A stretch of 53,172 nucleotides of DNA from an uncultured Coriobacteriaceae bacterium. GTDB taxonomy: Bacteria; Actinomycetota; Coriobacteriia; Coriobacteriales; Eggerthellaceae. The stretch is taken from contig CACZAR010000002.1 in the NCBI GenBank assembly GCA_902779135.1, positions 1-53,172 on the forward strand, in the 5' to 3' direction. Below the pieces are notes generated by a model. The model did no database searches. It saw only the letters and a program-made list of their open reading frames with translations, and was not told the DNA's origin. Numbering within the stretch: the stretch's first letter is position 1; each line of letters begins with the position of its first letter. The position numbers and the translations under genes are program-made. Shown here one piece after another: positions 14,912-45,394 of the stretch.

Positions 14912-15145
14912 ATGGACGATCGGGAGCTCGAAAACAGGTTGAGACAGTTGTTCAAGCAAGATCTATCTGCTGGGACCGAATCGTTCAGGGACGAATTGCT
15001 CGCCCGTTGTCTTGCCGTGCTTACTGATGAAGCCGCTGCTGAAAGATTTCACGAAGGCGTCGAGCTCGACGATTCTGTTCTGGATTTGCTTGCTGCTGCC
15101 GGTGATCTCACAGCGCTTGATGACAAGCGATTTCCTCAAAGTTAA
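14912..15145 (+). CDS. Small acidic protein of NHLM module A (candidate export substrate)
   Basis: A 77-residue protein that I cannot assign to a named family. It matches the small protein at 44890-45156: both have an ESFRxxLLAxxL stretch (residues 23-34 here) and, later, VELDDSVLDLLAAAGD (residues 50-65), where the other has VKLEDADLEMLAAAEG. An acidic helix ending in small residues is how leaders processed by C39 peptidases look, and a C39 transporter is encoded four genes downstream. If cleaved after AAG it would release a 13-residue peptide. It could equally be a regulator of the sigma factor. AAGGGGGG precedes the ATG. Confidence 0.7.
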   Translation: MDDRELENRLRQLFKQDLSAGTESFRDELLARCLAVLTDEAAAERFHEGVELDDSVLDLLAAAGDLTALDDKRFPQS

Positions 15146-15172
15146 ATAAAGCCAATTTGAGCGCATGTTCTG

Positions 15173-15210
15173 CCAAGGAATTGCTCCTTTGGTGCGTTTT
15201 TTCCTATAAA
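15173..15210 (+). promoter_or_regulatory. Hairpin and possible promoter before sigma factor A
   Basis: CCAAGGA / TCCTTTGG with an ATTGC-type loop forms a small hairpin followed by TTTTTT, so it may terminate the preceding transcript. The same stretch offers TTGCTC (15181-15186), an 18-bp spacer and TATAAA (15205-15210) as a promoter. A nearly identical ATTGCTCCTTTTGG motif lies upstream of sigma factor B at about 36183. Confidence 0.5.
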
Positions 15211-15242
15211 ATTACTACCAGTATTCTTTAGGAGAGACCACC

Positions 15243-15782
15243 ACGAGCGTACAGAAGCAACATCAAGCCATTCATGCACTGCGCGGCGGCAAGAGCGTAG
15301 CTGAGCGCGAATTCGAAAAACTCTATCGCGATAGCTACGGGCTTGTGTTCAGCTATGTGCGTGCTCGCATGAAGAGCGATGCAGACGCCGAAGATATCGT
15401 GGCGGAAGCGTTTTTGAAGGCGGCACGATCATTCAGCGCATTTGACCCCGCACGTGCCAAGTTCAGCACCTGGATGGTGACCATTGCGCGCAACTGCATG
15501 ATTTCGCATTTCCGCAAGGAGCGCGCGACTTCCGCACTCGATGACGTGCCCGAATCAGTTGTTGCCGTCGAAGGCGGTCAAAGCGCCGTCGACGACCGCG
15601 AGCTGGCCTTGCAGCTGCTTGGAGTCCTCGACGATGACGAACGTGCGCTCGTCCTGCTAAAGTATCGGGAGGACATGCGTAACGTTGACATTGCTCGCGA
15701 GATGAACATGAACCCTTCCACCGTTTCGACCGTCCTCGCTCGCGCCATTTGCAAGATGCGCGCTTGCGTGGAGAGGAGCTAA
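15243..15782 (+). CDS. ECF-like sigma-70 factor of NHLM module A (probable non-standard ACG start)
   Basis: An RNA polymerase sigma factor with region 2 (EKLYRDSYGLVFSYVRARMKSDADAEDIVAEAF, continuing to FSTWMVTIARNCMISHFRKER) and region 4 (LLGVLDDDERALVLLKYREDM, then NVDIAREMNMNPSTVSTVLARAI). No anti-sigma gene is adjacent. The first ordinary start, GTG at 15345, would cut region 2 in half, yet the frame is open further back. The only site with a good Shine-Dalgarno (AGGAGAG at about 15231-15237) is ACG at 15243, giving 179 residues. Either ACG is used, or a nearby ATT or CTG, or a T-to-C change damaged an ATG. Transcription probably continues into the export genes 4 bp downstream. Confidence 0.8.
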   Translation, partial: TSVQKQHQAIHALRGGKSVAEREFEKLYRDSYGLVFSYVRARMKSDADAEDIVAEAFLKAARSFSAFDPARAKFSTWMVTIARNCMISHFRKERATSALDDVPESVVAVEGGQSAVDDRELALQLLGVLDDDERALVLLKYREDMRNVDIAREMNMNPSTVSTVLARAICKMRACVERS

Positions 15783-15786
15783 CATC

Positions 15787-16296
15787 ATGCCAGAAGCTTC
15801 GAGATCGATTTTCAACGAGCGCGCAAGCGACAAGCTGCGCAGCCCCGACGACCTGGACAAGTATGTCCAAGTGACCAACCCCAGCGTATGGGTGATACTC
15901 GTAGCATGTATTGCGCTGTTGGCCGGCTTGCTCGCTTGGGGCGTGTTCGGTTCCGTGACGACAAATGTGTCTGCTACGGGTGTAATCGCCAACGGTCAGG
16001 CAACGTGTTTCTTATCAGCAGATAACGTTGCCAAAGTCAGTGTGGGAGATTCTGCGAGTATCGATGGCGAGCTTGTGCGGGTAGCGACGGTCGATAACGT
16101 ACCTGTGTCGCGCAAAGAAGCCGAGGAGATCCTCAAAAGTGATTACCTGGTAAGCGAGCTTGTGAAGGGCGACTGGGCTTACAAAGTCACTTTCGAAGGC
16201 GACACTTCGGATCTGACCGAGAACATCCCGCTCACCGTGAGCATCACGACAGAACGCATTGCGCCCATCAGCTTGATTTTGGGGGGCAATGCGTAA
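15787..16296 (+). CDS. NHLM-type secretion adaptor (HlyD-like), module A
   Basis: A 169-residue membrane-anchored protein: a short cytosolic N-terminus, one helix at about residues 33-55 (VWVILVACIALLAGLLAWGVF), then an extracytoplasmic beta-rich part. The phrase GSVTTNVSATGVIANGQ is typical of HlyD-like membrane-fusion proteins, and the small size with its place before a peptidase-ABC gene matches the NHLM bacteriocin secretion protein. It should pair with the two ABC proteins to export a peptide. It starts 4 bp after the sigma gene and its TAA directly precedes the next ATG. Confidence 0.8.
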   Translation: MPEASRSIFNERASDKLRSPDDLDKYVQVTNPSVWVILVACIALLAGLLAWGVFGSVTTNVSATGVIANGQATCFLSADNVAKVSVGDSASIDGELVRVATVDNVPVSRKEAEEILKSDYLVSELVKGDWAYKVTFEGDTSDLTENIPLTVSITTERIAPISLILGGNA

Positions 16297-18456
16297 ATGC
16301 CCGGCAAGATTCCAAAAGTACCTCAGGTGATGCAGATGGAGGCGCTCGAATGCGGTGCCGCCTGTCTCACCATGATCTTGGCCTATTACGGTAAGTGGGT
16401 ACCGCTCGAGCAGGTTCGCGCCGATTGCGGCGTATCACGCGATGGCTCGAAAGCCTCCAACATGCTGAAAGCAGCGCGCAGCTATGGCCTGGCGGCAAGG
16501 GGCATGACCATGTCAACCCAAGTGTTGAAGAAAAAGGAGCCTTTCCCCTGCATTATCTTCTGGAATTTCAACCATTTCGTCGTGCTGCGCGGGTTCAGAG
16601 GCAAATACGCGCTGATAAACGACCCTGCGCGCGGGCAAGTCAAGGTGCCGATGGACCAATTCGAAGATTCATTCACCGGCATTGTCCTTATGTTCGAGAA
16701 AACCGACGCCTTCGAAGAGGGCGGGGCTAAGCCTGATACCAAAAAATACGCGCGCAAGCGCCTGGAAGGCCTAGGGCCAGCATTGGCGTTTGTCATGCTG
16801 ACGGCGGCCATCACCTCAGCAGTGGGCATCCTAAACACTTCGCTTGGCCAGGTGTTCATGGATCACATTCTCACTGGCAAAAATCCGGACTGGCTCGTAC
16901 CGTTAACCGCAGTGATGCTGATTCTTGCGATTATCATCGGCATCGTGTCGATTTTGAATGCAATCTATCTTGTACGTATTCAAGGCAAGATTGCAGTTGT
17001 CAGCTCTTCGCGCTTCATGCGTCATCTGCTTCATTTGCCCGTGGGGTTCTATGCGCAGCGCATGGTGGGCGATTTGCAGCAACGTCAATCCATGAACGAG
17101 ACAATTGCTTTCAACCTGATCGGACAGCTGGCACCCGTGATCGTGAACACGGTGATGCTGGTGCTGTACTTGGTGATCATGCTGAACTACAGCGTGTTGT
17201 TGACCATTGTGGGTTTGGCAACGGTGGTTTTGAACGCGCTGGTTGCACGCTACATTTCACTCAAGCGCATCAACATCGCGCGTGCAGCGATGGCCGATGC
17301 TGGCAAGCTGTACGCCACGACAGTCGGCGGCATCCAGATGATCGAGACCATCAAGGCCGCTGGTGCCGAGACGGGGTTCTTTGGGCGTTGGGCAGGCTAC
17401 CAGGCATCCGTGAACGAAGGATCAACACGTACAACGCGCCTGAACGAATACCTTGGCATGGTGCCGCAAATGCTGTCGCAGGCGGCCAACATCGCCGTGC
17501 TCGTGTTGGGCATCTGGCTGATCGTAGAGAACCAGTTCACGGCAGGTATGTTGTTGGCATTCACAGGCTTCCTGTCATCGTTCATGGCACCAGTCACTCA
17601 GATGATCAACCTGGGTCAGACGGTCCAGGAAATGCAAACCCAAATGGAGCGCGTTGAAGATGTCATGCGATATCCGACGGACGTGCCCGAAGAGCCTGAG
17701 GAACCAATTGACGTGTCCAAGCTCAAGCGTGAGAAGCTACGTGGCATTGTGGATCTCGAGGGCGTTACGTTCGGTTATTCGCCGTTAGAGCCGCCGCTTA
17801 TCGAAGGGTTTAATTTGCATCTTGATTCTGGCCAGTGGGTTGCGCTTGTCGGCGGTTCTGGTTGCGGTAAGTCCACCATTGCGAAAATCGTGGCAGGTTT
17901 ATACGACCCGTGGGCCGGTGAGGTGCGTTTTGACAGTAAGCCTCTACACGACATCCCCCGTCCTATCTTGCGCGGTTCACTTGCGGTCGTTGACCAGGAC
18001 ATCGTGACCTTCGACGACACCATTTCGAACAACGTGAAGCTTTGGGACAATTCCATCGAGAATTACGAAGTCATTCTCGCTTGTCGCGATGCCGGTATCC
18101 GAGATGTGATCGATGAGCGCGAGGGTGGTTATTCCAGCCGCGTGCTGCCGGGTGGACGCAATTTCTCGGGCGGACAGCTACAGCGTCTCGAGATTGCCCG
18201 CGTGCTTGCCCAGGATCCAACCATCATCATCTTGGATGAGGCCACGAGTGCGCTCGACGCCCAGACCGAAGCCGAAGTCATCAAACGCATCCGCGATCGC
18301 GGCATCACCTGCATTGTGGTGGCGCACAGGCTTTCCACCATACGTGATTGCGACGAAATCATCGTACTCGACGATGGCAAGGTTGTGGAGCGCGGCACCC
18401 ACGAGGAGTTGCTCGCCAGCGACGGCGCTTATGCGGAGTTGGTGCGCAATGACTAA
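16297..18456 (+). CDS. NHLM bacteriocin-system ABC transporter with C39 peptidase domain, module A
   Basis: A 719-residue peptidase-containing exporter. The N-terminal C39 domain has Gln13, catalytic Cys19 in LECGAAC, His93 in NFNHFVVL and Asp109 in INDPARG, a complete protease triad that cleaves leaders after double-glycine-like sites. A six-helix transmembrane domain follows (about residues 160-460). The nucleotide-binding domain has Walker A GGSGCGKST, signature FSGGQ, Walker B IIILDEATSALD and the H-loop VVAHRLST. It starts directly after the adaptor stop and overlaps the next gene by 8 nt. Layout and partner genes match the first ABC protein of NHLM systems. Confidence 0.92.
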   Translation: MPGKIPKVPQVMQMEALECGAACLTMILAYYGKWVPLEQVRADCGVSRDGSKASNMLKAARSYGLAARGMTMSTQVLKKKEPFPCIIFWNFNHFVVLRGFRGKYALINDPARGQVKVPMDQFEDSFTGIVLMFEKTDAFEEGGAKPDTKKYARKRLEGLGPALAFVMLTAAITSAVGILNTSLGQVFMDHILTGKNPDWLVPLTAVMLILAIIIGIVSILNAIYLVRIQGKIAVVSSSRFMRHLLHLPVGFYAQRMVGDLQQRQSMNETIAFNLIGQLAPVIVNTVMLVLYLVIMLNYSVLLTIVGLATVVLNALVARYISLKRINIARAAMADAGKLYATTVGGIQMIETIKAAGAETGFFGRWAGYQASVNEGSTRTTRLNEYLGMVPQMLSQAANIAVLVLGIWLIVENQFTAGMLLAFTGFLSSFMAPVTQMINLGQTVQEMQTQMERVEDVMRYPTDVPEEPEEPIDVSKLKREKLRGIVDLEGVTFGYSPLEPPLIEGFNLHLDSGQWVALVGGSGCGKSTIAKIVAGLYDPWAGEVRFDSKPLHDIPRPILRGSLAVVDQDIVTFDDTISNNVKLWDNSIENYEVILACRDAGIRDVIDEREGGYSSRVLPGGRNFSGGQLQRLEIARVLAQDPTIIILDEATSALDAQTEAEVIKRIRDRGITCIVVAHRLSTIRDCDEIIVLDDGKVVERGTHEELLASDGAYAELVRND

Positions 18457-20635
18457 GTGGATTGAATCGCAAATCGAGACGCGCGCCCAACTTGACTCCG
18501 AAGCTCTCGAGCGCGCCTATACCGAACTTGCTGCTAGCGTTAGCGGGAATCGGTTTGCCCCCCGCGTCACAATTGACGATGTCGAGCAAGTTGACGGAGC
18601 TGCCAAAGCATGCCTCAAATACATGGGCATAACTCCGGGGCCCGTACCGCAAGACGTTGAAGAAGTCGAAGATCGCGTTGACTGGCTCTGCCGGCCGACG
18701 GGTACGATGAGGCGTTTGGTCAGGCTTGAGAAGGATTGGCAGACACGAGCCTTTGGAGCGATGCTCGGCAGCCTCGACACAGGTGAAGTCATCGCTTTGC
18801 TGCCGCGTGGTGTACGGGGTTACTACTATCTCGAGCCGGGCACCGGACGCAAGGTTCACGTGACGCGGGAAGTCGCCGAGCACATCGACGAAAAAGCTAT
18901 CCTGTTCTACAGACCGCTCCCAGCTAAGCCGCTCAAGGTGCGCGATCTCCTGCGCTTCATCTTCGGTGTGTTCGACCGCAACGATTATCTGCTTGTGGTG
19001 TTTGCAGCATTGGTTGTGACGCTTGTCGGGCTTGTGCCCCCTTGGGCAAACCAGGTGGCCTTCAACGTCGTCGCACCGTCTGGTCAAGCGAGGCTCATCC
19101 TGCCCATTGGTGCATTGTTGCTGGGCGTGGCTGTGTCGAAAGCGCTTATAACCGCTTGCCGCAATCTCGTTATGGCACGCGTTTCCACCAAGCTCAACGT
19201 TGTGACCGAGGCGGCCACTTTCGCGCGCGTGCTGTCGTTGCCGACTTCGTTCTTCAAGAACTATTCGTCGGGCGACCTGAGCAGTCGTGTTGCTAACATC
19301 ACCTCGCTTGCGAACTTGCTAGCGTCCATTTTGCTAGGCTCGGGTCTTTCCGCTTTGCTCTCGATCGTCTACATCTTCCAGATCGGAGCTTTTGCCCCGG
19401 CGCTGGCGCTGCCTGCGCTGGCTATCGCTGTTATCCAGGCAGTGCTCACGATCGTGGTTACAATCGCCACCATGCGCTACGAGCAAGCCACGCTTGAAGC
19501 AAGCTCTAAGCTATCGGGTTTGGTGACGGCCTTGTTGAATGGCATCCAGAAGATCAAGCTCGCGGGTGCCGAAGACCGCGCCTTTGCGCAGTGGGCTCAT
19601 GGCTATTCGAAATACGCGCGCTCTGCCTATAACCGTCCCACAATCTTATATGCACTGCCTGCGCTCGTGGCATTCATTGGACTGTTGGGCAACATCGCCA
19701 TTTACTACCTTGCTGGTTCGACAGGTGTGTCAACTGGGAACTACATGGCTTTCAACGTCGCGTATGGACAGGTCACATCAGCTATCATGGCGCTGGCAGG
19801 CGTAGCAGGCCAAATCGCCCAAATCAACCCCATGCTCGAAATGGTTGCGCCCGTCCTTGAGGCCGAGCCCGAGATTGCAGAAGATAAGCCGAGCATCGAG
19901 TCGCTGAACGGCGCCGTTGAGGTGTCGAACGTGTCGTTCCGCTACGCCGAGAATCAGCCCTACATCCTTCGCGACCTTTCCTTCAAGGTGGACCCAGGCG
20001 AATATGTGGCGCTTGTTGGCAAGTCTGGATGTGGCAAATCGACCATCTTGCGCTTGTTGCTAGGCTTCGAGAAAGCTGAGCGCGGCAGCATACTCTTCGG
20101 TCAACATGATGTGACGAAAGTCGACTTGAGGTCGTTGCGCCAACATGTCGGCGTGGTGATGCAGGATGGCAAGCTGTTCATGGGCAACATTTCGGATAAC
20201 ATCACGATTTCCACGCCGACGGCCACGCTCGATGACGCATGGGAGGCGGCCGAAATCGCTGGCATAGCGGACGATATCCGCAAGATGCCCATGGGCATGC
20301 AAACGTTCGTTACCGAAGGCGGCGGTGGCGTTTCGGGCGGTCAGCGCCAACGCATCATGATTGCGCGCGCCGTATGCGGCAAGCGTAGGATTCTCATGCT
20401 TGACGAGGCCACGAGTGCGCTTGACAACAAGACCCAGAAGCACGTGAGCGACTCGCTCGAAAAGCTCGAATGTACGCGCATCGTGGTTGCGCATCGCCTC
20501 TCGACCGTGCAGCATTGCGATCGCATCCTTGTCGTCGATGGCGGGCGCATTGCTGAAGAAGGCACCTACGACGAGCTGATCGAAAAGAAGGGTTTGTTTG
20601 CCGAGCTGGTTGAGCGCCAGAGGCTTGATTCGTAG
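18449..20635 (+). CDS. NHLM bacteriocin-system ABC transporter, second ATP-binding protein, module A
   Basis: A 728-residue ABC exporter without a peptidase domain. The first ~160 residues are soluble, a helical region that in this family replaces the C39 domain. A membrane domain and an ATPase domain follow, the latter with Walker A GKSGCGKST, signature VSGGQRQR and Walker B ILMLDEATSALD. The ATG at 18449 overlaps the end of the preceding gene (ATGACTAA) and is preferred over earlier in-frame starts inside that gene. It probably forms a heterodimer with, or works in series with, the peptidase transporter. No modification enzyme follows, unlike module B. Confidence 0.9.
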   Translation: MTKWIESQIETRAQLDSEALERAYTELAASVSGNRFAPRVTIDDVEQVDGAAKACLKYMGITPGPVPQDVEEVEDRVDWLCRPTGTMRRLVRLEKDWQTRAFGAMLGSLDTGEVIALLPRGVRGYYYLEPGTGRKVHVTREVAEHIDEKAILFYRPLPAKPLKVRDLLRFIFGVFDRNDYLLVVFAALVVTLVGLVPPWANQVAFNVVAPSGQARLILPIGALLLGVAVSKALITACRNLVMARVSTKLNVVTEAATFARVLSLPTSFFKNYSSGDLSSRVANITSLANLLASILLGSGLSALLSIVYIFQIGAFAPALALPALAIAVIQAVLTIVVTIATMRYEQATLEASSKLSGLVTALLNGIQKIKLAGAEDRAFAQWAHGYSKYARSAYNRPTILYALPALVAFIGLLGNIAIYYLAGSTGVSTGNYMAFNVAYGQVTSAIMALAGVAGQIAQINPMLEMVAPVLEAEPEIAEDKPSIESLNGAVEVSNVSFRYAENQPYILRDLSFKVDPGEYVALVGKSGCGKSTILRLLLGFEKAERGSILFGQHDVTKVDLRSLRQHVGVVMQDGKLFMGNISDNITISTPTATLDDAWEAAEIAGIADDIRKMPMGMQTFVTEGGGGVSGGQRQRIMIARAVCGKRRILMLDEATSALDNKTQKHVSDSLEKLECTRIVVAHRLSTVQHCDRILVVDGGRIAEEGTYDELIEKKGLFAELVERQRLDS

Positions 20636-34908: not shown

Positions 34909-34928
34909 ATTTGGTTTCAAGCAAACGG

Positions 34929-36047: not shown

Positions 36048-36174
36048 TGCTACTCCTTTTTCACTGCGTTTAACGAGCTGTTTCTCGTGTATATAGTTAG
36101 CTGTATTATCCTCTAGTTCGCAGCGTTTTTTCAAGTTGTTGCCATCCTTCCACAAGATTCATGCCGAAACCAAT

Positions 36175-36214
36175 CAAAAGGGATTGCTCCTTTTGGCGAG
36201 GTTCTGGGTATTAC
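36175..36214 (+). promoter_or_regulatory. Hairpin / motif upstream of sigma factor B
   Basis: The sequence GGATTGCTCCTTTTGG nearly repeats the motif before sigma factor A (15180-15192), and in both places the flanks can pair across an ATTGC loop. Here a TATTAC follows 19 nt after TTGCTC. The rest of 36048-36276 shows nothing else recognisable. Confidence 0.4.
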
Positions 36215-36276
36215 ATGAGAGCGGGTTTGCGCAAAGGAATAATTATGGGGGTTAAGGCTCGCGTTCTTCGCTTGCC

Positions 36277-36305
36277 TTGACAGTTGCAAACGATGATATG
36301 ATTAT
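36277..36305 (+). promoter_or_regulatory. Promoter of NHLM module B
   Basis: A perfect TTGACA, 17-bp spacer and GATTAT, 43 bp upstream of the sigma-factor start. It looks like a housekeeping promoter rather than an ECF one. Confidence 0.6.
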
Positions 36306-36347
36306 CCTTGGATTATCAGGAATCTTCTCTGGCAGGGGTCTTTGGAC

Positions 36348-36842
36348 ATGGACGACCGCCAACTCGAAAACCTGTACCGCGCCAACTTCCAGAGGGTGTA
36401 TAACTACGCCTACTACTCGTTGCTGAATTCTGCCGAAGCCGAGGATGTGACCAGCGCGGTTTTCGTCAAGGTCGTCGCGAACATCGACAAGTATGATGCC
36501 TCTCGGGCCTCGTTCGGCACGTGGATCACGCGCATTGCCCATAACGTTTTGGTCGATTACCACCGCACGCGCAAACCGACCGTGTCGCTCGAAAAAGTCG
36601 TGGTCGACGAGCCTGCGGTCGAAGATGACTATCCTGTGTTGGATGACCGGCAACAACGCGTCGCCAAACTGCTCGCTTGCCTCTCGGAGCAAGATCGCGA
36701 ACTGATATACCTGAAGTACTACCAAGAAAAGAAGAACGTCGAAATTGCGCAGTTGCTCGACATGAATCCATCGACGGTCGCTACGCGCCTGCGACGAGCG
36801 CTCATCGCCATGCGCGCTTGCGCTGAAGAGGAAACCTCATGA
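36348..36842 (+). CDS. ECF-like sigma-70 factor of module B
   Basis: A 164-residue sigma factor, paralogous to the one at 15243. Region 2 runs from LYRANFQRVYNYAYYSLLNSAEAEDVTSAVF to FGTWITRIAHNVLVDYHRTRK. Region 4 has LACLSEQDRELIYLKYYQEKK and VEIAQLLDMNPSTVATRLRRAL. The C-termini of both end in an M/RAC(A/V)E-type sequence. The ATG at 36348 follows CAGGGG; a TTG two codons earlier is possible. It overlaps the adaptor gene by 4 nt (ATGA), so it is translated with the exporter. No anti-sigma gene is seen. Confidence 0.88.
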   Translation: MDDRQLENLYRANFQRVYNYAYYSLLNSAEAEDVTSAVFVKVVANIDKYDASRASFGTWITRIAHNVLVDYHRTRKPTVSLEKVVVDEPAVEDDYPVLDDRQQRVAKLLACLSEQDRELIYLKYYQEKKNVEIAQLLDMNPSTVATRLRRALIAMRACAEEETS

Positions 36843-37390
36843 CGCAGGAGCGGGGATCTGGGCAAGTACAGCAGGGCGAACGGCAAGAACTGTTCCGGCA
36901 GACCGCTCTCGACCAGGCATCGGCGGCGACGGGGCTCGACGCATACATCAAGGCGGTACGGCCCAGCACGTGGCTCGTTGCCGTGGCGGCGGTCATTGCC
37001 ATGGTGGCCTTGCTCATCTGGGGCTTCACCGCCAAGGTGGCTACGACCATAAACGACAACGGTGTCGTGCACGACGGCCAGGTGGTCAGCTACCTGACCG
37101 AGCAGAACCGAAAGGAAGTCAGTGTCGGAGATCGCGCGCTCGTCGACAACGAAGAAGCGACTGTCGTCGACGTGTCCAAGACACCGCTTTCTTCGCGCGA
37201 TGCTGGGGCTGTGGCTAATGACGAGTACACACTCGAAATGCTCAAGCTCGAGGACTGGAATTACCCCGTGTACCTGACCATGGACAACTTGCCCAAGGAA
37301 GGTACCCTGGTCGACGTGATGATCACGACTGACGAGGTGGCGCCCATTTCGTTCCTTCTCGACTCGGAGCTGGGCAATGAATCGAGCTAA
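36839..37390 (+). CDS. NHLM-type secretion adaptor (HlyD-like), module B
   Basis: A 183-residue homologue of the adaptor at 15787. It has a cytosolic N-terminus of ~44 residues, a helix at about 45-66 (WLVAVAAVIAMVALLIWGF), then an extracytoplasmic beta-rich part beginning KVATTINDNGVVHDGQ. Both adaptors end in a similar VxITTxxxAPISFLL / VSITTERIAPISLIL stretch. It overlaps the sigma factor gene and, by 14 nt, the peptidase transporter gene. Confidence 0.8.
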   Translation: MTQERGSGQVQQGERQELFRQTALDQASAATGLDAYIKAVRPSTWLVAVAAVIAMVALLIWGFTAKVATTINDNGVVHDGQVVSYLTEQNRKEVSVGDRALVDNEEATVVDVSKTPLSSRDAGAVANDEYTLEMLKLEDWNYPVYLTMDNLPKEGTLVDVMITTDEVAPISFLLDSELGNESS

Positions 37391-39548
37391 AGGGCCCATC
37401 CGCACCGTTCCCATGGTCATGCAGATGGAGGCGCTCGAATGCGGTGCCGCCTGCTTGGCCATGATTCTCGCGTATCACGGCAAGTGGGTAGGGCTTGACC
37501 AAGTGCGCCACGACTGCGGCGTGTCGCGCGACGGCTCGCGCGCGGTCAACATCCTGAAGGCGGCTCGTTCCTACGGACTCGTGGCCGATGGCTACAGTCT
37601 CGATCCCGAATCGCTTGCGACTATGCCGCTGCCCTGCATCATCCATTGGAATTTCAACCATTTCGTTGTGCTGAAGGGCTTCACGGGCAAATGGGCCTAT
37701 CTCAACGATCCCGCACGCGGTTCGATTCGTGTGTCGCTCGAAGAGTTCGACCGTTCGTTCACGGGTATTGCGCTGTGCTTCGAACCGGGCGAGTCGTTCG
37801 AGGAAGGGGGTAAGCCGGCAAGCGTCGTCTCATTCGCGCGCTCACGTCTCAAAGGCGCTGCCGGTCCCACCGTTGTCATCGCCATTGCCGCCGTTATTGG
37901 GGCGTTTGCTGGCATCGCCAATGCAACGTTCTCGCGTGTGTTCATGGACCGCATCCTGACGGGCATCGACCAGAATTGGCTCGTGCCGCTCGTCGTGTTG
38001 ATGGCTATCGTCGCTATCTTGCAGTGCATCGCCGCCGGCATCAACTCTGTCAGCGCGCTGCGCGTGCGGGGGAAGTTTGCCGTTTCTGCAAGCACTGAAT
38101 TCGTTTGGCACCTGCTGCGGCTCCCCGTGTCGTTTTACGAGCAGCACAACATCGGTGACTTGCAGCAGCGCCAATCCGAGAACGAGAGCGTCGCCTACAC
38201 GCTCATCTCGCAGCTAGCCCCCGTGATGCTCAACGTGGTTCTTCTCGTGGTGTACCTGGTCGTCATGGTGCGCTACAGCTTGATGCTGACGCTGGTTGGG
38301 TTGTTCACCGTTGTGGTGAACCTGTTCGTGGTCAACGCCACAGCTCGTGCCCGTGTCAACGTCACGCGCGTGCAATTGCGCGACAACGGTCGGCTGTACT
38401 CGTCGACGATCGGCGGCATCGACCAAATCGAAAGCATTAAGGCCTCGGGTGCCGAAGACGGCTATTTCGCCCAGTGGAGCGGTTATCAGGCGGCGCTCGC
38501 AGCGACCCAAGCGCGTTTGGCCAACATCACGCAATATCTCGGGGCGCTCCCCTCGGCCTTGGTTCAGTTGACGAACGTCATCGTGTTGACCCTGGGCGTG
38601 TGGCTCATCATGGAAGGCGAGTTCTCGGTGGGCATGTTGCTGGCGTTCCAGAGCCTGCTTTCGCAGTTCTTCTCACCCATCAACTCGCTCCTCTCGCTCA
38701 ATCAACAGGTGCAGGAAATGCGCACGTCGATGGAGCGCATCGATGATGTGTTAAAGAGCGAGCCCGATGTCCCGGACGACATCGAAGATTGCCGTCCTTC
38801 GGGAGAAAAACTCTCGGGCAAGCTTGACGTCGCTGGACTGACGTTTGGCTACTCTCCGCTTGGGGCGCCAGTCATTTCCAGCTTCGATTTGCACGTGAAA
38901 CCGGGTGAGTGGGCCGCACTCGTCGGTGACTCCGGATGTGGGAAATCGACCATCGCCAAGCTGATTGCGGGTTTGTACAAACCTTGGGAGGGGTCGGTGT
39001 CGTTTGACGACATTCCCGCTGAAGAGGTGCCGCGCATGAAGCTCAAGCGGTCTCTTTCAGTTGTCGATCAAGACATCGTGCTGTTCGACGGCACCATTAT
39101 GGACAACTTGCGTCTGTGGGACGGCTCGATCGACGAAGCCGATGTGTTCCGCGGCGCGCGTGATGCGTCCATACATGAGGCCATTGTGGCGCGGCCCGAT
39201 GGATACGACCAGGCGGTCACATCCGATGGAGCCAATTATTCGGGTGGAGAACGCCAACGTCTCGAAATAGCCCGCGCCTTGTCCCAAAATCCCACGATCA
39301 TGATCCTTGACGAGGCCACGAGTGCACTCGATGCCAAGACCGAGCAAGAGGTCATGCAGGCAATACGCGCACGCAACATCACGTGCATCGTGGTTGCGCA
39401 CCGCCTATCGACCATTCGCGATTGCAGTCAGATCGTGGTGCTCGAAAAGGGACACGTGGTGGAACGGGGCACGCATGACGAGCTGATGGGGCTCAACGGT
39501 CGTTATGCAGCGCTTGTGAACGACGGCGATACGGGAGGTGCGCGATGA
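37377..39548 (+). CDS. NHLM bacteriocin-system ABC transporter with C39 peptidase domain, module B
   Basis: A 723-residue peptidase-containing exporter closely similar to the product at 16297. The C39 triad is complete: Cys22 in LECGAAC, His95 in NFNHFVVL and Asp111 in LNDPARG. The membrane domain spans about residues 160-460. The ATPase domain has Walker A GDSGCGKST, signature YSGGERQR and Walker B IMILDEATSALD. It should remove the leader of the Nif11-type precursor at 42966 after its Gly-Gly and export the core. It overlaps both neighbours. Confidence 0.92.
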   Translation: MNRAKGPIRTVPMVMQMEALECGAACLAMILAYHGKWVGLDQVRHDCGVSRDGSRAVNILKAARSYGLVADGYSLDPESLATMPLPCIIHWNFNHFVVLKGFTGKWAYLNDPARGSIRVSLEEFDRSFTGIALCFEPGESFEEGGKPASVVSFARSRLKGAAGPTVVIAIAAVIGAFAGIANATFSRVFMDRILTGIDQNWLVPLVVLMAIVAILQCIAAGINSVSALRVRGKFAVSASTEFVWHLLRLPVSFYEQHNIGDLQQRQSENESVAYTLISQLAPVMLNVVLLVVYLVVMVRYSLMLTLVGLFTVVVNLFVVNATARARVNVTRVQLRDNGRLYSSTIGGIDQIESIKASGAEDGYFAQWSGYQAALAATQARLANITQYLGALPSALVQLTNVIVLTLGVWLIMEGEFSVGMLLAFQSLLSQFFSPINSLLSLNQQVQEMRTSMERIDDVLKSEPDVPDDIEDCRPSGEKLSGKLDVAGLTFGYSPLGAPVISSFDLHVKPGEWAALVGDSGCGKSTIAKLIAGLYKPWEGSVSFDDIPAEEVPRMKLKRSLSVVDQDIVLFDGTIMDNLRLWDGSIDEADVFRGARDASIHEAIVARPDGYDQAVTSDGANYSGGERQRLEIARALSQNPTIMILDEATSALDAKTEQEVMQAIRARNITCIVVAHRLSTIRDCSQIVVLEKGHVVERGTHDELMGLNGRYAALVNDGDTGGAR

Positions 39549-41623
39549 GCGATTTTGAAACGCAGCTTCCCATGAATGGCCTCGATGAGGCCTTGGCCGT
39601 TTTGCTTGCCCATTTCAATGTGAAACCTTCTAAAACACTGCCCATCGGCGACACAATCGAGCAACGGCTCGACAGCATGCTGCATCCCCACGGCATCATG
39701 AGACGCAAAGTCCGTCTGGAAGGGCAGTGGTACAAGGACGCGATCGGTGCGATGCTGGGCGCTTTGCAGGATGGTAGTCCTATCGCGCTGCTTCCCCATG
39801 GTGCGGCGGGCTATTCTTACGTCGACCCCACAACCGGCAAACGCGTACGCGTGACGGGTGCCAATGCGGGCACTATCCAACAAGACGCACTGTGCCTGTA
39901 CCAGCCGCTTCCCTTGAAACCGCTGGGTCTTCGCGACTTGGCCTCGTTCGGTTTGCGGTCACTCGGGAAAGCTGACTACGTGACGATCGTGCTGGTCAGC
40001 GTGATTGCGACCGTCATAGGCCTGCTTCCCGCATGGGCGAACCAGGTCATCTTCGACCAGGTCGTGCCTTACGGCAAGCCATCGCTCGTCCTGCCAGTTG
40101 CCGCGCTGCTGATCGGAGCGGTGCTTTCGCAGGCAGTCATAGGCCTTGCCCGGTCGCTCGTGACGGCACGTATCGGCACCAAGCTCAACGTGCAGGTGCA
40201 AGCAGCTGTGATGGCGCGCCTTTTGCTGTTGCCGCCACGGTTCTTCGTGGAGCACCAGCCTGGCGAGCTGACCAACCGAGCCATGGCGGTTACGCAGCTC
40301 GTGCAGCTGCTCATGAAGGTCGTGTTCACCACGGGGCTCTCGTCGGTGCTGTCGCTCGTCTACATCGTGCAAATCGCCAGTTTCGCACCGCAGCTCACCA
40401 TCCCCGCACTTTTCGTCTTGGTTGTGAATGCGATCGTCACCACCGTGGCGACGCTCGCCAACATGCGTTACGACCAGAAGCAGCTCGAGAGCACGGCGGG
40501 CCTTTCGGGCACGCTGGTCTCGCTGCTTTCGGGCATAAGCAAGATCAAGCTGGCGGGCGCAGAGCGTCGAGCTTTCACCCGCTGGGCCCAAGATTACGCT
40601 CAAGTTGCCAAGAGCATTTACGATCGCCCGCTGTTGCTGAAAGCCTCAAGCGTTATCACGACGGCCACGGGGTTGGCGGGCACCATCCTCATCTACTTCC
40701 TCGCAAGTGCCACACAGGTATCGGTTGCCGATTACATGGCGTTCAACGTTGCATACGGTATGGTCACGGGCGCCATCATGGCACTTGCCGGTATCGGTAC
40801 GCAAATCGCGGCTATCCAACCGACCATGAAGCTCGTCGAGCCCGTGCTGAAATGCCAGCCCGAAGCACGCGAGGGCGACCATCCTGTTGAGGACGTCACG
40901 GGCGCCATCGAACTGACGGACGTCACGTTCCGCTACAGCGAGGACGGCCCGGCCATCGTCGAAGATTTAAGCCTATCGATTCATCCCGGCGACTACGTGG
41001 CGATTGTCGGCCGCACGGGATGCGGCAAATCGACCCTGGTGCGCCTATTGCTTGGCTTCGAGGAGCCCGAACTAGGCACCATCTGCTACGATGGGCGCGA
41101 TCTTGATACGCTCGACAAGCGTTCGTTGCGCCGCCATATCGGCGTCGTCCTGCAAACCGGCAGGTTGGTGTCGGGTAACATCTTCCAAAACATCACGCTT
41201 TCCGCACCTTACCTGACGATGGACGAGGCGTGGGAAGCGGCTGAGTTGGCTGGCATTGCCGACGACATCCGCGCAATGCCCATGGGCATGTTCACGCGCA
41301 TCTCCGAAGGTTCGGGAAGCATCTCGGGTGGCCAACGCCAGCGCTTGCTCATAGCGCGTTCGGTTGCCGCAAAACCCAAGTTGCTCATCTTCGACGAGGC
41401 TACAAGTGCGCTTGACAACATTACGCAGCGTCAGGTGTCCGACGCCCTGGGCGCGCTTGACTGCACGCGCGTTGTGGTAGCGCATCGGTTGTCCACGATT
41501 CGCAACTGCGATCGCGTTCTCGTGCTCGACGGCGGACGTATCGTCGAGGATGGCACGTATGACGATCTGCTTGCGCAAAACGGCGTTTTCGCTGAGTTGG
41601 TGGAGCGTCAGAGGTTGATATAG
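39545..41623 (+). CDS. NHLM bacteriocin-system ABC transporter, second ATP-binding protein, module B
   Basis: A 692-residue ABC exporter lacking the peptidase domain, paralogous to the product at 18449. The soluble N-terminal ~140 residues contain MRRKVRLEGQWYKDAIGAMLGAL, which aligns with the other copy. A membrane domain and an ATPase domain follow, with GRTGCGKST, ISGGQRQR and LLIFDEATSALD. It overlaps the previous gene by 4 nt. About 85 bp separate it from the glycosyltransferase gene, with no terminator, so that gene is probably on the same transcript. Confidence 0.9.
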   Translation: MSDFETQLPMNGLDEALAVLLAHFNVKPSKTLPIGDTIEQRLDSMLHPHGIMRRKVRLEGQWYKDAIGAMLGALQDGSPIALLPHGAAGYSYVDPTTGKRVRVTGANAGTIQQDALCLYQPLPLKPLGLRDLASFGLRSLGKADYVTIVLVSVIATVIGLLPAWANQVIFDQVVPYGKPSLVLPVAALLIGAVLSQAVIGLARSLVTARIGTKLNVQVQAAVMARLLLLPPRFFVEHQPGELTNRAMAVTQLVQLLMKVVFTTGLSSVLSLVYIVQIASFAPQLTIPALFVLVVNAIVTTVATLANMRYDQKQLESTAGLSGTLVSLLSGISKIKLAGAERRAFTRWAQDYAQVAKSIYDRPLLLKASSVITTATGLAGTILIYFLASATQVSVADYMAFNVAYGMVTGAIMALAGIGTQIAAIQPTMKLVEPVLKCQPEAREGDHPVEDVTGAIELTDVTFRYSEDGPAIVEDLSLSIHPGDYVAIVGRTGCGKSTLVRLLLGFEEPELGTICYDGRDLDTLDKRSLRRHIGVVLQTGRLVSGNIFQNITLSAPYLTMDEAWEAAELAGIADDIRAMPMGMFTRISEGSGSISGGQRQRLLIARSVAAKPKLLIFDEATSALDNITQRQVSDALGALDCTRVVVAHRLSTIRNCDRVLVLDGGRIVEDGTYDDLLAQNGVFAELVERQRLI

Positions 41624-41708
41624 TGATAATGAAATGGTAGGAACAATTCGTCGTATGAGCAGTTAAAAGATGCATTGAAATTCGCAGGCATTAGAATGAA
41701 GGAGAAGA

Positions 41709-42893
41709 ATGATGAGGATTCTCTGGTTCTGCATTCCCGCATATGGGCATACTAATCCGACCATCGAAGTTGTTCGCGAGCTTGTGCGGCGTGGCCACGA
41801 AGTGCGCTACTACTCCTTCGAGGAGTTCCGGGAGAAGATTGAAGGTGCTGGGGCGGACTTTATATCCTGCGACGCCTATTTGCCCGCCCTCGATGCAAAG
41901 AGCGAGCGCAAGCTCCGCGAGGTGTCAACCACCGAGATGAGCGTGCAGTCGTTTCGCATCACCGCCACCCTCGATCCCATCATCTCGCAGGATGTGGAAT
42001 CATGGCAGCCTGATGTGCTGGTCACGGATTCCGCTTGCTTTTGGGGCAAACTCACAGCAATTAAGTTCAACCTTCCCTGGGTGTGCTCCACCACCACGTT
42101 CGCATTCAATAAGGATTCTGCCCAATACATGCAACAGAGTGCATCGGAGATTGCCGATATGGTCTTGGGACTTCCGCGCATGAACTGCGAGATTCGCAAG
42201 CTGCGGGGCTTGGGCTACCATGTGAAGAACGTCCTCGACATCGTGCAGAACAAGCCTGACGACAACACCATCGTCTACACCTCACGCACCTTCCAGCCCT
42301 GCGCCGAGACTTTCGATGAGATACATTACCGCTTCGTGGGCCCGTCCGTGCGCGAGGTGGAGCCGCGCGAGAAGGCTGGCCGCCCGCTGGTGTTCGCATC
42401 ACTCGGCACGGTCATCAACGACCGCCCTGGTTTTTACCGCACGCTCATCGAAGCCCTGCACGATGAGGATGTCGACCTGCTCATATCCTGCGGTAAGGCG
42501 TTCGACCCAACGGTTTTGGGCGAACTTCCCGCCAACATGCGCGTCGAGCACTACGTGGATCAGATGGAGGTGCTCTCGCGGGCGAGTCTGTTCGTCACGC
42601 ACTGCGGCATGAACAGTGCATCGGAGGGCATGTGGATGGCAGTGCCCGAACTGCTCTTCCCCCTGACGGGCGAACAGCGGGCGGTGGCGCGGCGCGTGGC
42701 CGAGGTCGGCGCCGGCGTTCTCCTTGACGAGCACGATGCCAAAGATGCGCTAAAGCTGAAAGCGGCTGTGCTCTGTGCGCTTGCGAACGAGGACATTTCC
42801 ACAGGGGCTGCCCGCATGAGGGAAGACCTTCGTTCATGCGTCGGTCCTTCCGGTGCAGCCGACTTCATCGAGCAGTGTTCCCTGAAACGTTAA
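41709..42893 (+). CDS. MGT-type (GT1) glycosyltransferase in the RiPP cluster
   Basis: A 394-residue GT-B glycosyltransferase like those that glycosylate macrolides and other natural products. The N-terminal acceptor domain opens with ILWFCIPAYGHTNPTIEVVRELVRRGHEV, including the conserved His. The C-terminal donor domain has PLVFASLGTV and the sugar-nucleotide motif FVTHCGMNSASEGMWMAVPELLFPLTGEQ. AAGGAGAAG precedes the ATG at 41709; a second ATG follows at once. Its place between exporter and precursor suggests it glycosylates the exported peptide, or a self-protection target; this is inference. Confidence 0.88.
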   Translation: MMRILWFCIPAYGHTNPTIEVVRELVRRGHEVRYYSFEEFREKIEGAGADFISCDAYLPALDAKSERKLREVSTTEMSVQSFRITATLDPIISQDVESWQPDVLVTDSACFWGKLTAIKFNLPWVCSTTTFAFNKDSAQYMQQSASEIADMVLGLPRMNCEIRKLRGLGYHVKNVLDIVQNKPDDNTIVYTSRTFQPCAETFDEIHYRFVGPSVREVEPREKAGRPLVFASLGTVINDRPGFYRTLIEALHDEDVDLLISCGKAFDPTVLGELPANMRVEHYVDQMEVLSRASLFVTHCGMNSASEGMWMAVPELLFPLTGEQRAVARRVAEVGAGVLLDEHDAKDALKLKAAVLCALANEDISTGAARMREDLRSCVGPSGAADFIEQCSLKR

Positions 42894-42906
42894 ACCCCCG
42901 TGCTCG

Positions 42907-42912
42907 TATAAT
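42907..42912 (+). promoter_or_regulatory. -10 element before the precursor peptide gene
   Basis: A perfect TATAAT, 54 bp before the precursor start and after the glycosyltransferase stop, could give the precursor its own stronger transcript. No good -35 is seen. Confidence 0.4.
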
Positions 42913-42965
42913 TAATTGCAAGGTGAGACACCCTAATCATCCGCTGCATCAAGAGGAGGTTGATT

Positions 42966-43289
42966 GTGAACCTGGAAGACTACATCAAGGAACTAAGCCC
43001 CGAACTGCAGGAGAAGGCCCGCGCGTGCGGCAGCGTCGATGAGCTGTTGGTGCTCGCCAAGGAGAACAAGATTCCATTGCCCGATGAGGCGCTTACCGCC
43101 ATCGCAGGTGGGCAGGATGGCGGAACCGTGAACTGTGGGAAACTGCATTGTCCGCAGTGCAGCTGCACCAAGATCGCATACCAGTACGAGGATCGCGGGA
43201 ACTACTACCAGTATTTTTACACGTGCACTGGGTGCGGTTACGAGTGGTCCGAGAGATGGCCCAAATACCCTGATCCGGGCATAAACTAA
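42966..43289 (+). CDS. Nif11-like leader RiPP precursor with zinc-ribbon-like core
   Basis: A 107-residue precursor. The leader (NLEDYIKELSPELQEKARAC, then SVDELLVLAKENKIPLPDEA and LTAIAGG) is a clear Nif11-type leader ending in Gly48-Gly49, the expected C39 cleavage site. The 58-residue core has six cysteines (57, 62, 65, 67, 87, 90) and is rich in Tyr. CPQC and CTGC with about 20 residues between, then GYEW, look like a zinc ribbon. The core may be a metal-binding mini-protein, a substrate for radical SAM thioether formation, or both. The GTG at 42966 follows AAGAGGAGG; the TTG at 42960 is too close to that site. Confidence 0.88.
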   Translation: MNLEDYIKELSPELQEKARACGSVDELLVLAKENKIPLPDEALTAIAGGQDGGTVNCGKLHCPQCSCTKIAYQYEDRGNYYQYFYTCTGCGYEWSERWPKYPDPGIN

Positions 43290-43296
43290 GATAATC

Positions 43297-44694
43297 ATGC
43301 GTTACCGCTTGAAACAAGGTTGCAGCCTGCGTGGATGGCTGTTCAATCCGTACGCTCTCGTGCGGGACGATTGGTATATGCCCACCAATTTGTCAGTGGG
43401 CGAGTTCAACGTGTTGGTGCGCTGCGATGGGGAAACCGTCTTCGCGGAAGATGAACCCGACGAGGTGCGTGCGATTCTGGCGCGTTTCCTCGAAGAAGGC
43501 GTGATTGAAGAATGCGCTGCTCCTGATCCCGTTGCTGACGCCCAGGGATACAAGTTGTATCCCTGCTGGCGGTTTAACCTGATCAACTGGGCTATCACGG
43601 GCAGGTGCAACTACAACTGCAAGCACTGCTTCGCAGCAGCCGATCTCAATCCGATTGCGGCGCATCCCACAACCGAACAGTGCCTGGCATTCGTGGATCA
43701 GTTGGCCTCCTGCGGCATCCGCCACGTATGGCTCACGGGTGGTGAGCCGCTTTTGCGCAACGATTTCCCGCAAATCGCGCAAGCACTTGCCGATGCAGGC
43801 ATATCAATCGACGACATTGGCACGAACGCCTCGCTCGTCACTGACGAATTGCTTGACGCCCTTAAGGCGATGGGCCACCATCCCCAATTCAACATCAGCT
43901 TCGACGGACTTGGACATCACGATTGGCTGCGCGGCGTGCCGGGCGCCGAAGAGCGCACGCTTGAGGCGATTCAGCTGCTGAAACACCGCGGCTACCGCGT
44001 GAAGGTGCAGTATTGCCTGTGGGACGGCAATCTGGATACGCTGCGCGAGACCACGCTACGCTTAGCGGATATGGGCGTCGATCATTTGCGCCCCATCCGC
44101 GTGGTCGAGGCGCCGCGGTGGAAGGCTGCCGAATACGGCCATACGCTGGACTATCGCGCCTATTGCGATTTGATGGTGGAATACCTTGACTGGTATGTGG
44201 GCGAGAATCTGCCCATGGAACTGGAAGTGTGGTCATTGCTCGATTACATGCCCGCTTCCAGGCAATGCCGGCTCACACCGGTTAAGCGCTGCAGCGTCGA
44301 ACGCGATCGGCTCCAGCCTGTGTGCGGCGATGCGCGCAACATGCCCTTCGTGGCGAGCAACGGCAGCCTGACGTTATGCAACCAAATCTCAGGTTGGGAG
44401 ACGGCTCACGGCGTCGAGCACGGCAACGTATACAAGACACCGCTGGCCGAGCTGTTATCTAACTCGCCCTTCACGCAGCAACTGTTGGTTACCCGTGCCC
44501 AAGTGCGCGAGCACAATCCCCAATGCCAAACGTGTGAGTTTGCCAGTGAGTGCAATTGCGGCTGCCGGGCAGTTGCGCTTGCCATGACCGACGACTTGTT
44601 GGCAGCTGACCCCACGCAGTGCATCTTCTTCAAGGGCGGCTACCGCGAGCGTTTCTCGCAAGTCCTTGCTACGCACAACATCACCATTTGGTAA
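43297..44694 (+). CDS. Radical SAM/SPASM peptide maturase
   Basis: A 465-residue radical SAM enzyme. An N-terminal ~85-residue part may be a peptide-recognition (RRE/PqqD-like) fold. The SAM-binding cluster motif CNYNCKHC follows, then LTGGEPLLR. The C-terminal SPASM region is cysteine-rich (CRLTPVKRCS, PVCGDARN, LTLCNQ, CQTCEFASECNCGCRA), able to hold auxiliary Fe-S clusters. Such enzymes install thioether or carbon crosslinks in ribosomal peptides. The gene starts 7 nt after the precursor stop, with no strong RBS of its own, suggesting coupling. The bond it forms cannot be told from sequence. Confidence 0.92.
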   Translation: MRYRLKQGCSLRGWLFNPYALVRDDWYMPTNLSVGEFNVLVRCDGETVFAEDEPDEVRAILARFLEEGVIEECAAPDPVADAQGYKLYPCWRFNLINWAITGRCNYNCKHCFAAADLNPIAAHPTTEQCLAFVDQLASCGIRHVWLTGGEPLLRNDFPQIAQALADAGISIDDIGTNASLVTDELLDALKAMGHHPQFNISFDGLGHHDWLRGVPGAEERTLEAIQLLKHRGYRVKVQYCLWDGNLDTLRETTLRLADMGVDHLRPIRVVEAPRWKAAEYGHTLDYRAYCDLMVEYLDWYVGENLPMELEVWSLLDYMPASRQCRLTPVKRCSVERDRLQPVCGDARNMPFVASNGSLTLCNQISGWETAHGVEHGNVYKTPLAELLSNSPFTQQLLVTRAQVREHNPQCQTCEFASECNCGCRAVALAMTDDLLAADPTQCIFFKGGYRERFSQVLATHNITIW

Positions 44695-44821
44695 ATCTGC
44701 CAAAGCGCCCGGCGCGTGGGCCATAAACCCCTTTTTTCTTCCAATTGGGTGAAACGGTCTTTCGGCTCATTCGTATAGGGGAATAGGAAGAAAAGAAAGA
44801 AGTGGGATTATCTTCTACGAA

Positions 44822-44872
44822 ATGCCGTATAGGTGCAAAGACTGCGGTCACAAGTTTCTTGCGCCAGTGTAG
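44822..44872 (+). CDS. Possible 16-residue zinc-finger-like micro-ORF or remnant
   Basis: Reads MPYRCKDCGHKFLAPV then TAG. The MPxYxCxxCGxxF pattern is the start of FmdB/zinc-ribbon regulatory proteins, which normally continue with a second CxxC. No clear RBS is next to it. It may be a truncated gene 5' end or chance. Confidence 0.35.
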   Translation: MPYRCKDCGHKFLAPV

Positions 44873-44889
44873 CGTTACAATTTTGAGCT

Positions 44890-45156
44890 ATGGACGTGAT
44901 GAGTGACAACTCGTTCGAGAGCAGCATGAAGTGCGATTTCCCGGTACGGGAATCGTTCCGCGAAGCTTTGCTTGCAGACTTGCTTTCGATGGACGAAAGC
45001 GAGTTAGCATCAGCGTCGTCAGACGAATCGATGGAGCCTCACAAGAGTGCGGCGCGGATAGTCAAGCTCGAAGACGCTGATTTGGAGATGCTTGCCGCGG
45101 CAGAAGGTGAAGATCGAGCACTCAAACACCCGCTTGTGGACCCGTTCGAACAGTAA
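44890..45156 (+). CDS. Small acidic protein of NHLM module B (candidate export substrate or regulator)
   Basis: An 88-residue protein related to that at 14912-15145. ESFREALLADLL at residues 21-32 matches ESFRDELLARCL, and VKLEDADLEMLAAAEG matches VELDDSVLDLLAAAGD. The rest is acidic and serine-rich. No named family is recognised. Its presence in both sigma/exporter modules, first in A and last in B, points to a shared role as peptide substrate, leader-like partner or sigma-factor modulator. TACAAT at 44876-44881 ends 8 nt before the ATG at 44890, so the mRNA may be leaderless; a second ATG is at 44899. The spacer 44695-44821 holds only a weak GGG/CCC hairpin with six T. Confidence 0.65.
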   Translation: MDVMSDNSFESSMKCDFPVRESFREALLADLLSMDESELASASSDESMEPHKSAARIVKLEDADLEMLAAAEGEDRALKHPLVDPFEQ

Positions 45157-45222
45157 AATCGTCCTGTGATTATGGGGGCAGAAACCCCTCCTCATCAACT
45201 CTACACCATCGCGGATTAGCAA

Positions 45223-45251
45223 TTGCGCGACATCTTGAACTGCGATATACT
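45223..45251 (+). promoter_or_regulatory. Promoter of tRNA-Thr(CGT)
   Basis: TTGCGC, 17-bp spacer and TATACT, ending 28 bp before the tRNA. Confidence 0.65.
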
Positions 45252-45279
45252 GCGATACCGCACTTGAAAAAGTGCTGTT

Positions 45280-45355: not shown

Positions 45356-45363
45356 CAAGTTAG

Positions 45364-45392: not shown

Positions 45393-45394
45393 GC

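Follow-up and report, generated by a model that had tools for sequence, protein, structure and literature searches.

The window analyzed here, 53,172 nucleotides of contig CACZAR010000002.1 (assembly GCA_902779135.1), comes from an Eggerthellaceae bacterium of the ruminant gut, represented by a 2.17-Mb metagenome-assembled genome (MAG) of 202 contigs that is 83% complete (G000). Between positions 36348 and 45156, its forward strand carries, in this order, genes for an extracytoplasmic function (ECF) sigma factor, a HlyD-like protein, the NHLM ATP-binding cassette (ABC) transporters ABC1 and ABC2, a GT1 glycosyltransferase, a Nif11-leader precursor peptide, a radical S-adenosylmethionine (SAM)/SPASM enzyme, and a small open reading frame (ORF). 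We consider it likely that this locus serves as hub for a dispersed, sigma-controlled system in which Nif11-leader peptides with zinc-ribbon-like cores, encoded at scattered sites, are served by one set of modification and export proteins. The combination of a radical SAM enzyme, a Nif11 precursor, and an NHLM exporter is in itself widespread and already known; what appears new is the promoter-defined, scattered zinc-ribbon set with a radical SAM hub. A sequence-only reading had described the locus as a complete, self-contained cluster. Its gene list, order, and single-strand arrangement were borne out, Pfam and NCBIfam scans backing each gene type; the majority of precursor genes are found outside the locus.

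A SigW-like promoter precedes the scattered precursor genes

By reading upstream regions, we found TGAAA[CT]-N16/17-CGTATA about 30 to 60 bp 5' of the zinc-ribbon precursors, namely, the in-locus precursor and those paralogues whose upstream DNA is visible. Genome-wide in G000, the pattern TGAAAYN{16,17}CGTATA occurred at nine sites, compared to none in the reversed control. Seven of them precede zinc-ribbon precursors (in one case the gene breaks off at a contig end after 27 codons), an eighth stands before the small ORF, and the ninth is located in coding sequence; all eight intergenic sites are thus located in front of a zinc-ribbon precursor or the small ORF. The SigW-like site is missing from every non-zinc-ribbon Nif11 gene identified in G000. 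Across the genus, 17 of the 22 sites matching a stricter pattern lie no more than 250 bp 5' of a listed Nif11 or small-ORF match, the chance share for such zones being 0.0004 of positions, and the other five stand before the cut precursor, before other Gly-Gly-leader peptides, or before a leaderless zinc-ribbon ORF of G006. The strict site was absent from 26 genomes of other genera, where a looser pattern yielded a few hits, at control level. When an ECF-type motif was sought before Nif11 genes in radical SAM loci of Clostridia, only ribosome-binding-site-like or A-rich words emerged, which limits the promoter finding to this Eggerthellaceae genus. SigW-like promoters were also seen 5' of leaderless zinc-ribbon ORFs (MCFRPS...) in G006 (contig C45, locus L275) and G008 (contig C31, locus L367).

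The sigma factor of the locus, designated type B, has SigW as its nearest solved relative (5wuq; E = 7e-16) and orthologues in G010, G002, G014, and G008 at 60 to 91% identity. As judged from its sequence, it is an ECF sigma factor but not SigW itself, scoring 74 to 81 bits against SigW equivalog models with cut-offs of 209 to 243. The strict promoter site occurs in five of five genus genomes with a type-B sigma factor (at least 60% identity) versus 3 of 10 other genus genomes. Promoter class also tracks sigma type, since the small ORFs that go with the two ECF sigma types, A and B, carry different promoters: all seven type-B small ORFs, including the window copy (44750) and that of G002, have TGAAAY-N16-CGTATA with zero or one mismatch. 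Of the 18 type-A small ORFs, 13 carry GGACGR-N15-CGTATAA, at zero to two mismatches. We infer from this linkage that the type-B sigma factor reads the TGAAAC-N16-CGTATA sites. The tie between the peptide and the locus's own sigma factor, proposed in the sequence-only reading, gains support from the SigW-like promoters at both the precursor and the small ORF.

Alternatively, another ECF sigma factor could read these sites, and the locus sigma factor would then not control the scattered precursors. Such a scenario would account for G012, G011, and G006, which have sites and no clear type-B sigma factor, and it would agree with the sigma/transporter operon itself appearing to be under a housekeeping-type promoter, an assignment for which the evidence is weak (the spacer is short, and the GATGATATGATTA portion is kept in G002). 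We nevertheless regard it as improbable, because the SigW-like class is found at seven of seven type-B small ORFs and the other class at most of the type-A ones, and because the published -35 element of SigW, the nearest solved relative, is TGAAAC (PMC6713349). The locus sigma factor shares this relative and this -35 box with the SigW-type sigma factors of Bacillus but differs from them in scoring far under the SigW equivalog cut-offs, in having leader peptides as its apparent regulon, and in lacking an adjacent membrane anti-sigma gene, there being just the small ORF of no predicted family.

The precursors share a leader and a predicted zinc-ribbon core

The GTG at position 42966, which has AGGAGG 6 bases upstream, is the most likely start of the in-locus precursor. 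Its leader aligns with those of its paralogues, although it scores only 15.2 bits against Nif11 (PF07862; cut-off, 23.8); five Nif11 matches elsewhere in G000 exceed the Pfam cut-off. Alignments showed that the in-locus peptide and its paralogues have in common the leader, a conserved Gly-Gly at the leader end, and a C-terminal C...CPxC...CxxCG pattern, with a variable loop in the core. The precursor had been described as ending in Gly-Gly, which is correct for the leader; a core of nearly 60 residues comes after it.

AlphaFold2 modeled the leader as helices and the core as three strands (residues 70 to 76, 80 to 87, and 93 to 99) with a predicted local distance difference test score of about 90. 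The top structural matches of the core were the zinc ribbons of NrdR, RPA12, TFIIS, and Rpb9 (Z, 3.8 to 5.7), with root mean square deviations of 1.3 to 1.9 over about 40 residues for NrdR, RPA12, and TFIIS; Foldseek E-values were modest (best, 0.013), which is expected of a domain this short. By prediction, the core thus adopts a zinc-ribbon fold of the TFIIS/NrdR type, and zinc binding is likewise a prediction. No variation across phyla was seen in the four ribbon cysteines, CPxC...CxxC. The core cysteines fit a zinc ribbon, and thioether or C-C crosslinks would be hypothetical. We found no text in the open-access literature combining "Nif11" with "zinc ribbon." Between the radical SAM gene and the small ORF lies the probable remnant of a second precursor, its leader lost, and a comparable remnant occupies the same place in G002 (L033, 5533-5688).

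A profile of the zinc-ribbon precursors identified members on G000 contigs C58, C26, C100, C13, C102, and C161 (the last cut by the contig end), so that at least six paralogous precursors lie outside the locus. Where the genes around them were read, they were unrelated, and the precursors on C58, C100, C13, and C102, among others, are solo genes without an adjacent enzyme. On C26, a second radical SAM enzyme of the same family, with its own different precursor, is encoded about 2.5 kb from the zinc-ribbon precursor. G002, G009, and G010 likewise hold solo zinc-ribbon precursors. On C100 (L126, ~6050-6729), two precursors stand in tandem, bordered by the repeated, inverted-repeat-like sequence GAGTCAGGAGACTGGCCCCCGACTC.

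In its logic, this system would work like the prochlorosins and synechococsins (ProcA/SyncA with ProcM/SyncM; PMC10783134), with which it shares Nif11-type leaders, many scattered solo paralogues, and one hub enzyme, without being a member of that group: the hub here is a radical SAM/SPASM enzyme and not a LanM-type synthetase, the cores are zinc ribbon-like, and one ECF-type promoter is common to the hub and the scattered genes. No description of a promoter-defined, scattered zinc-ribbon regulon was found in the open-access literature.

The radical SAM enzyme is conserved where its local precursor is lost

The enzyme matches PF04055 (3.6e-21) and PF13186 (1.6e-5), and its CxxxCxxC and SPASM cysteines are conserved. 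Its best solved match is SkfB (E = 1.3e-21); the conserved N-terminal region of about 90 residues has no Pfam or PDB sequence match. It shares the radical SAM plus SPASM architecture with sactipeptide and ranthipeptide maturases of the SkfB and CteB type, but the SkfB match spans mainly the radical SAM core, and the precursor cysteines here form a zinc-ribbon pattern, any crosslink being hypothetical.

In G009 and G010, a common IS110-type insertion and a deletion have destroyed the local precursor, leaving a 32-codon remnant without a leader. The radical SAM genes of both genomes are intact and under purifying selection, with a ratio of nonsynonymous to synonymous substitutions (dN/dS) of 0.087 between them and of 0.070 to 0.091 for other pairs. 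Since the local precursor has decayed while the enzyme is under purifying selection and the solo precursors are kept, the enzyme probably acts in trans on the scattered precursors. In G010, the precursor promoter beside the glycosyltransferase gene has likewise decayed.

The zinc-ribbon peptides might instead be exported unmodified, as small zinc proteins, and the radical SAM enzyme might have another substrate. Invariant ribbon cysteines across phyla, a core that is modeled confidently in its unmodified form, and solo copies without a modifying enzyme alongside would all suit this explanation, to which we assign a small though appreciable chance. It accounts poorly for purifying selection on the enzyme where the local precursor has decayed and for the proximity of this enzyme family to Nif11-leader ORFs, which were found within 2 kb in 59 of the best 80 loci of radical SAM relatives.

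These 80 loci, in which many contigs are short so that counts are lower bounds, also contain, within 10 kb, an NHLM subunit (41 loci) or an ECF-like sigma factor (18 loci); a glycosyltransferase is present in one, the G010 copy. In light of these counts and of a 2010 note of Nif11 precursors near NHLM clusters in Eggerthella lenta (PMC2887384), the combination seen here is ordinary except for the glycosyltransferase. The statement that no product with this combination had been described thus loses its force: radical SAM, Nif11, and NHLM genes, often with an ECF sigma factor, are widespread in gut Clostridia, and the glycosyltransferase alone is unusual. Nif11-leader zinc-ribbon ORFs beside this enzyme family occur in Lachnospiraceae, Oscillospiraceae, Bacilli, and archaeal records, the pattern being present in 30 of 151 Nif11-like ORFs and in 20 of 58 loci of the family. 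The archaeal pairs (L203, L209, and L210, from Thermoplasmata, Methanomethylophilaceae, and Methanosarcina MAGs), some with NHLM genes, may reflect MAG contamination. Some family members (L043, 9036-11184; L045, 8399-10497) are located by a Dph6-like ATP-pyrophosphatase, with no precursor.

The glycosyltransferase is a facultative neighbor

The glycosyltransferase belongs to the MGT type, its nearest solved relatives being 10zg and YjiC, and it scores 156 bits against the macrolide-inactivating model NF033129, whose cut-off is 700. The sequence-only reading had placed it in the pathway, as a tailoring enzyme of a possibly glycosylated, crosslinked product of the in-locus precursor, and had named in advance a failure of precursor, radical SAM enzyme, and glycosyltransferase to travel together as an observation that would speak against it. 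The glycosyltransferase indeed does not travel with the other two. The orthologous operon of G002 has ABC2, the precursor, and the radical SAM enzyme but no glycosyltransferase, and in G006 and G009 the glycosyltransferase gene is preceded by a gene that looks AbrB/SpoVT-like by sequence, in unrelated surroundings apart from precursor and radical SAM enzyme. Glycosyltransferase genes were present in 4 of 61 relatives. In L253 and L254, an AbrB/SpoVT-like small gene stands immediately 5' of the glycosyltransferase, perhaps as its original partner.

We therefore rejected a self-contained cluster for a glycosylated, ribosomally synthesized and post-translationally modified peptide (RiPP), and we hold it to be very unlikely even though gene order and tight spacing suggest it (from the sigma factor to ABC2, neighboring genes overlap by 4 to 14 bp, and the gap between precursor and radical SAM genes is 7 bp), the glycosyltransferase is under purifying selection (dN/dS of 0.115 between G000 and G010), and the four genus genomes with this gene all hold zinc-ribbon precursors too. 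Beyond the exceptions just described and the single occurrence among the 80 radical SAM loci, the precursor is preceded by a promoter of its own with a -35 box that overlaps the last glycosyltransferase codons (CTGAAACGTTAA), making the precursor independent of glycosyltransferase transcription. The glycosyltransferase is thus probably a side gene and not a core part of the system.

The exporter is of the NHLM type

ABC1 exceeds the curated cut-off of TIGR03796 (931.1 bits; cut-off, 853.3), matches Peptidase_C39 (3.8e-36), and contains the motifs ECGAAC, NHFVVL, and NDPARG. With ABC2 also above its cut-off, the proposed NHLM export of a Nif11-leader precursor is supported and strengthened at the level of predicted function. 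The HlyD-like adaptor is present as first described, and its short form is the rule in sibling NHLM loci, but it reaches only 25.6 bits against TIGR03794 (NHLM_micro_HlyD; cut-off, 156.2), with 56 residues matched. The set of ABC1 with its C39 peptidase, ABC2, and a HlyD-like protein is the one described for NHLM systems with NHLP/Nif11 precursors (Haft, Basu, and Mitchell 2010; PMC2887384). The text of that paper mentions neither "sigma" nor "radical SAM," and relative to it the locus adds sigma-linked promoters and zinc-ribbon cores.

A small ORF accompanies each of two ECF sigma types

Neither the small ORF that closes the locus nor a second NHLM operon at positions 14912-20635 of the window figures in the first account of the locus. 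Homologues of the small ORF adjoin an ECF sigma factor in most loci showing both sides, and they still do so on six contigs without an NHLM exporter in reach (L255, L256, L258 to L260, and L264). Two stretches of it are conserved, an FRxxLL helix and, toward the C terminus, LxDxxLxxLAAA; conservation does not extend to the short tail. It had no match in Pfam, NCBIfam, or PDB, either to a known anti-sigma factor or to another known family, and its model, three helices with a predicted template modeling score of 0.28, was too poor for a fold search. The linkage suggests that it is probably a cognate regulator or partner of the sigma factor, perhaps an anti-sigma factor.

The spacing of LxDxxLxxLAAA parallels that of double-glycine leader ends, the C39 leader consensus being L(-12)..L(-7)..L(-4).AA(-2,-1). 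With its C-terminal hydrophobic residues and AAA spaced in this way, the small ORF could itself be a peptide that the NHLM transporter exports, as substrate or pheromone, and no sigma regulator. We find this doubtful, in that it adjoins ECF sigma factors on the six contigs without NHLM genes in reach and has a short tail that lacks conservation. By analogy with FlgM export in flagella, one may also imagine an export-sensing anti-sigma factor, whose leader-like end would let the C39 transporter clear it and so free the sigma factor for the scattered precursors; this we offer as a long shot.

The second operon, paralogous to the main locus, is located between tRNA-Arg and tRNA-Ser genes with no precursor or maturase beside it, and its sigma factor and small ORF are of type A. 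In genus genomes, the type-A promoter is also found 5' of solo Nif11 genes of another class (Table 1). Each ECF type may thus have its own scattered peptide set.

Table 1. Features of the locus, of the second NHLM operon, and of related loci (window positions unless a contig or locus is named)
Feature	Position	Strand	Description
Putative housekeeping-type promoter of sigma/transporter operon	36277..36302	+	TTGACA, 14-bp spacer, extended -10 TGATATGAT
ECF sigma factor, type B	36348..36842	+	164 aa from ATG (first TTG, 36342); sigma-70 r2/r4
Short HlyD-like NHLM accessory protein	36839..37390	+	183 aa
NHLM ABC1	37377..39548	+	C39 peptidase/permease/ATPase; predicted leader cleavage and export; TIGR03796
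NHLM ABC2	39545..41623	+	Permease/ATPase; TIGR03797, 731.5 bits (cut-off, 709.4)
MGT-type GT1 glycosyltransferase	41709..42893	+	Facultative neighbor; TIGR01426, 294.4 bits (cut-off, 260)
SigW-like ECF promoter of precursor	42883..42910	+	TGAAAC-N16-CGTATA; -35 box overlapping last glycosyltransferase codons
Nif11-leader precursor, zinc-ribbon-like core	42966..43289	+	107 aa; paralogue alignments, AlphaFold2, fold matches
Radical SAM/SPASM enzyme	43297..44694	+	465 aa; CNYNCKHC, SPASM cysteines, conserved N-terminal ~90-aa domain
Second SigW-like ECF promoter	44750..44777	+	5' of precursor remnant and small ORF
Probable remnant of second precursor	44822..44872	+	Leader lost; MPYRCKDCGHKFLAPV*
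Small sigma-linked ORF, type B	44899..45156	+	85 aa; FREALL helix, C-terminal LEDADLEMLAAA motif
Type-A promoter	14843-14869		GACGG-N15-CGTATAA
Type-A sigma-linked NHLM operon	14912..20635	+	Small ORF, sigma factor, HlyD-like, ABC1, ABC2
IS110-type element and deletion	L034 1150-2914 (G010); L035 2012-3780 (G009)		Destroys local precursor
Type-A promoter with solo Nif11 gene (examples)	G001:C47, C63, C441, C818, C989; G004:C28, C110; G014:C92; G011:C65

Flanks of the locus

Two of the closest named relatives of G000, which are Eggerthellaceae/Coriobacteriaceae MAGs, come from the gut of goat and sheep. In G000 and G010, a tRNA-Thr gene lies directly 3' of the locus (window 45280-45355; L034, 4839-4914); an Rfam scan of positions 34000 to 46000 detected a tRNA and nothing else. 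The flanks of the G002 locus differ from this tRNA-Thr flank, which suggests that the module has moved. The radical SAM enzyme of G000 is closer to that of G002 (90%) than to that of G010 (87%), whereas ABC1 and the glycosyltransferase are nearer to G010 (92 to 94%); these opposite affinities hint at recombination inside the locus.

A probable hub with dispersed targets

In the dispersed system that we favor, the type-B sigma factor would transcribe, besides the small ORF and no fewer than six solo precursors, the in-locus precursor, which the radical SAM gene follows after 7 bp. The radical SAM/SPASM enzyme would recognize the common leader and modify the precursors in trans, and the NHLM C39/ABC transporter would cut after Gly-Gly and export peptides of about 40 to 60 residues with a predicted zinc-ribbon fold, presumably including those of the solo genes. 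The small ORF would tune the sigma factor as its cognate regulator, and the glycosyltransferase would be a bystander. In ECF-controlled lantibiotic clusters of the microbisporicin/NAI-107 type, a cluster-linked ECF sigma factor also drives a RiPP, but its targets share a single cluster, whereas most apparent targets of the present system are outside the locus.

Several observations weigh against this model. The sigma factor was assigned to its sites by linkage, and G000 encodes further ECF sigma factors; the sites of G012 and G011 stand before Nif11 peptides in incomplete MAGs without a recognized type-B sigma factor, and G009, another incomplete MAG, shows no type-B sigma factor. The chemistry of the radical SAM enzyme is a prediction, a PqqD-like RiPP recognition element sought in its N terminus gave no sequence match, and second enzymes of the same family (G000:C26, 33% identity; G010:C74) could share or do the work. 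Finally, a Z of about 5 for a 40-residue fold denotes a common arrangement and no more.

For a variable, expanded, and exported peptide family, antagonism or signaling is the likeliest guess as to its role. If the model is true, one ECF promoter scan would find an exported peptide family in uncultured gut Coriobacteriia, also in places with no biosynthetic enzyme close by, and most of these peptides would escape genome mining that is based on clusters. Two questions would become testable as well: for what reason a bacterium would secrete zinc ribbons that are associated with a radical SAM enzyme and resemble RNA-polymerase-linked domains, and how one enzyme would serve many scattered substrates.

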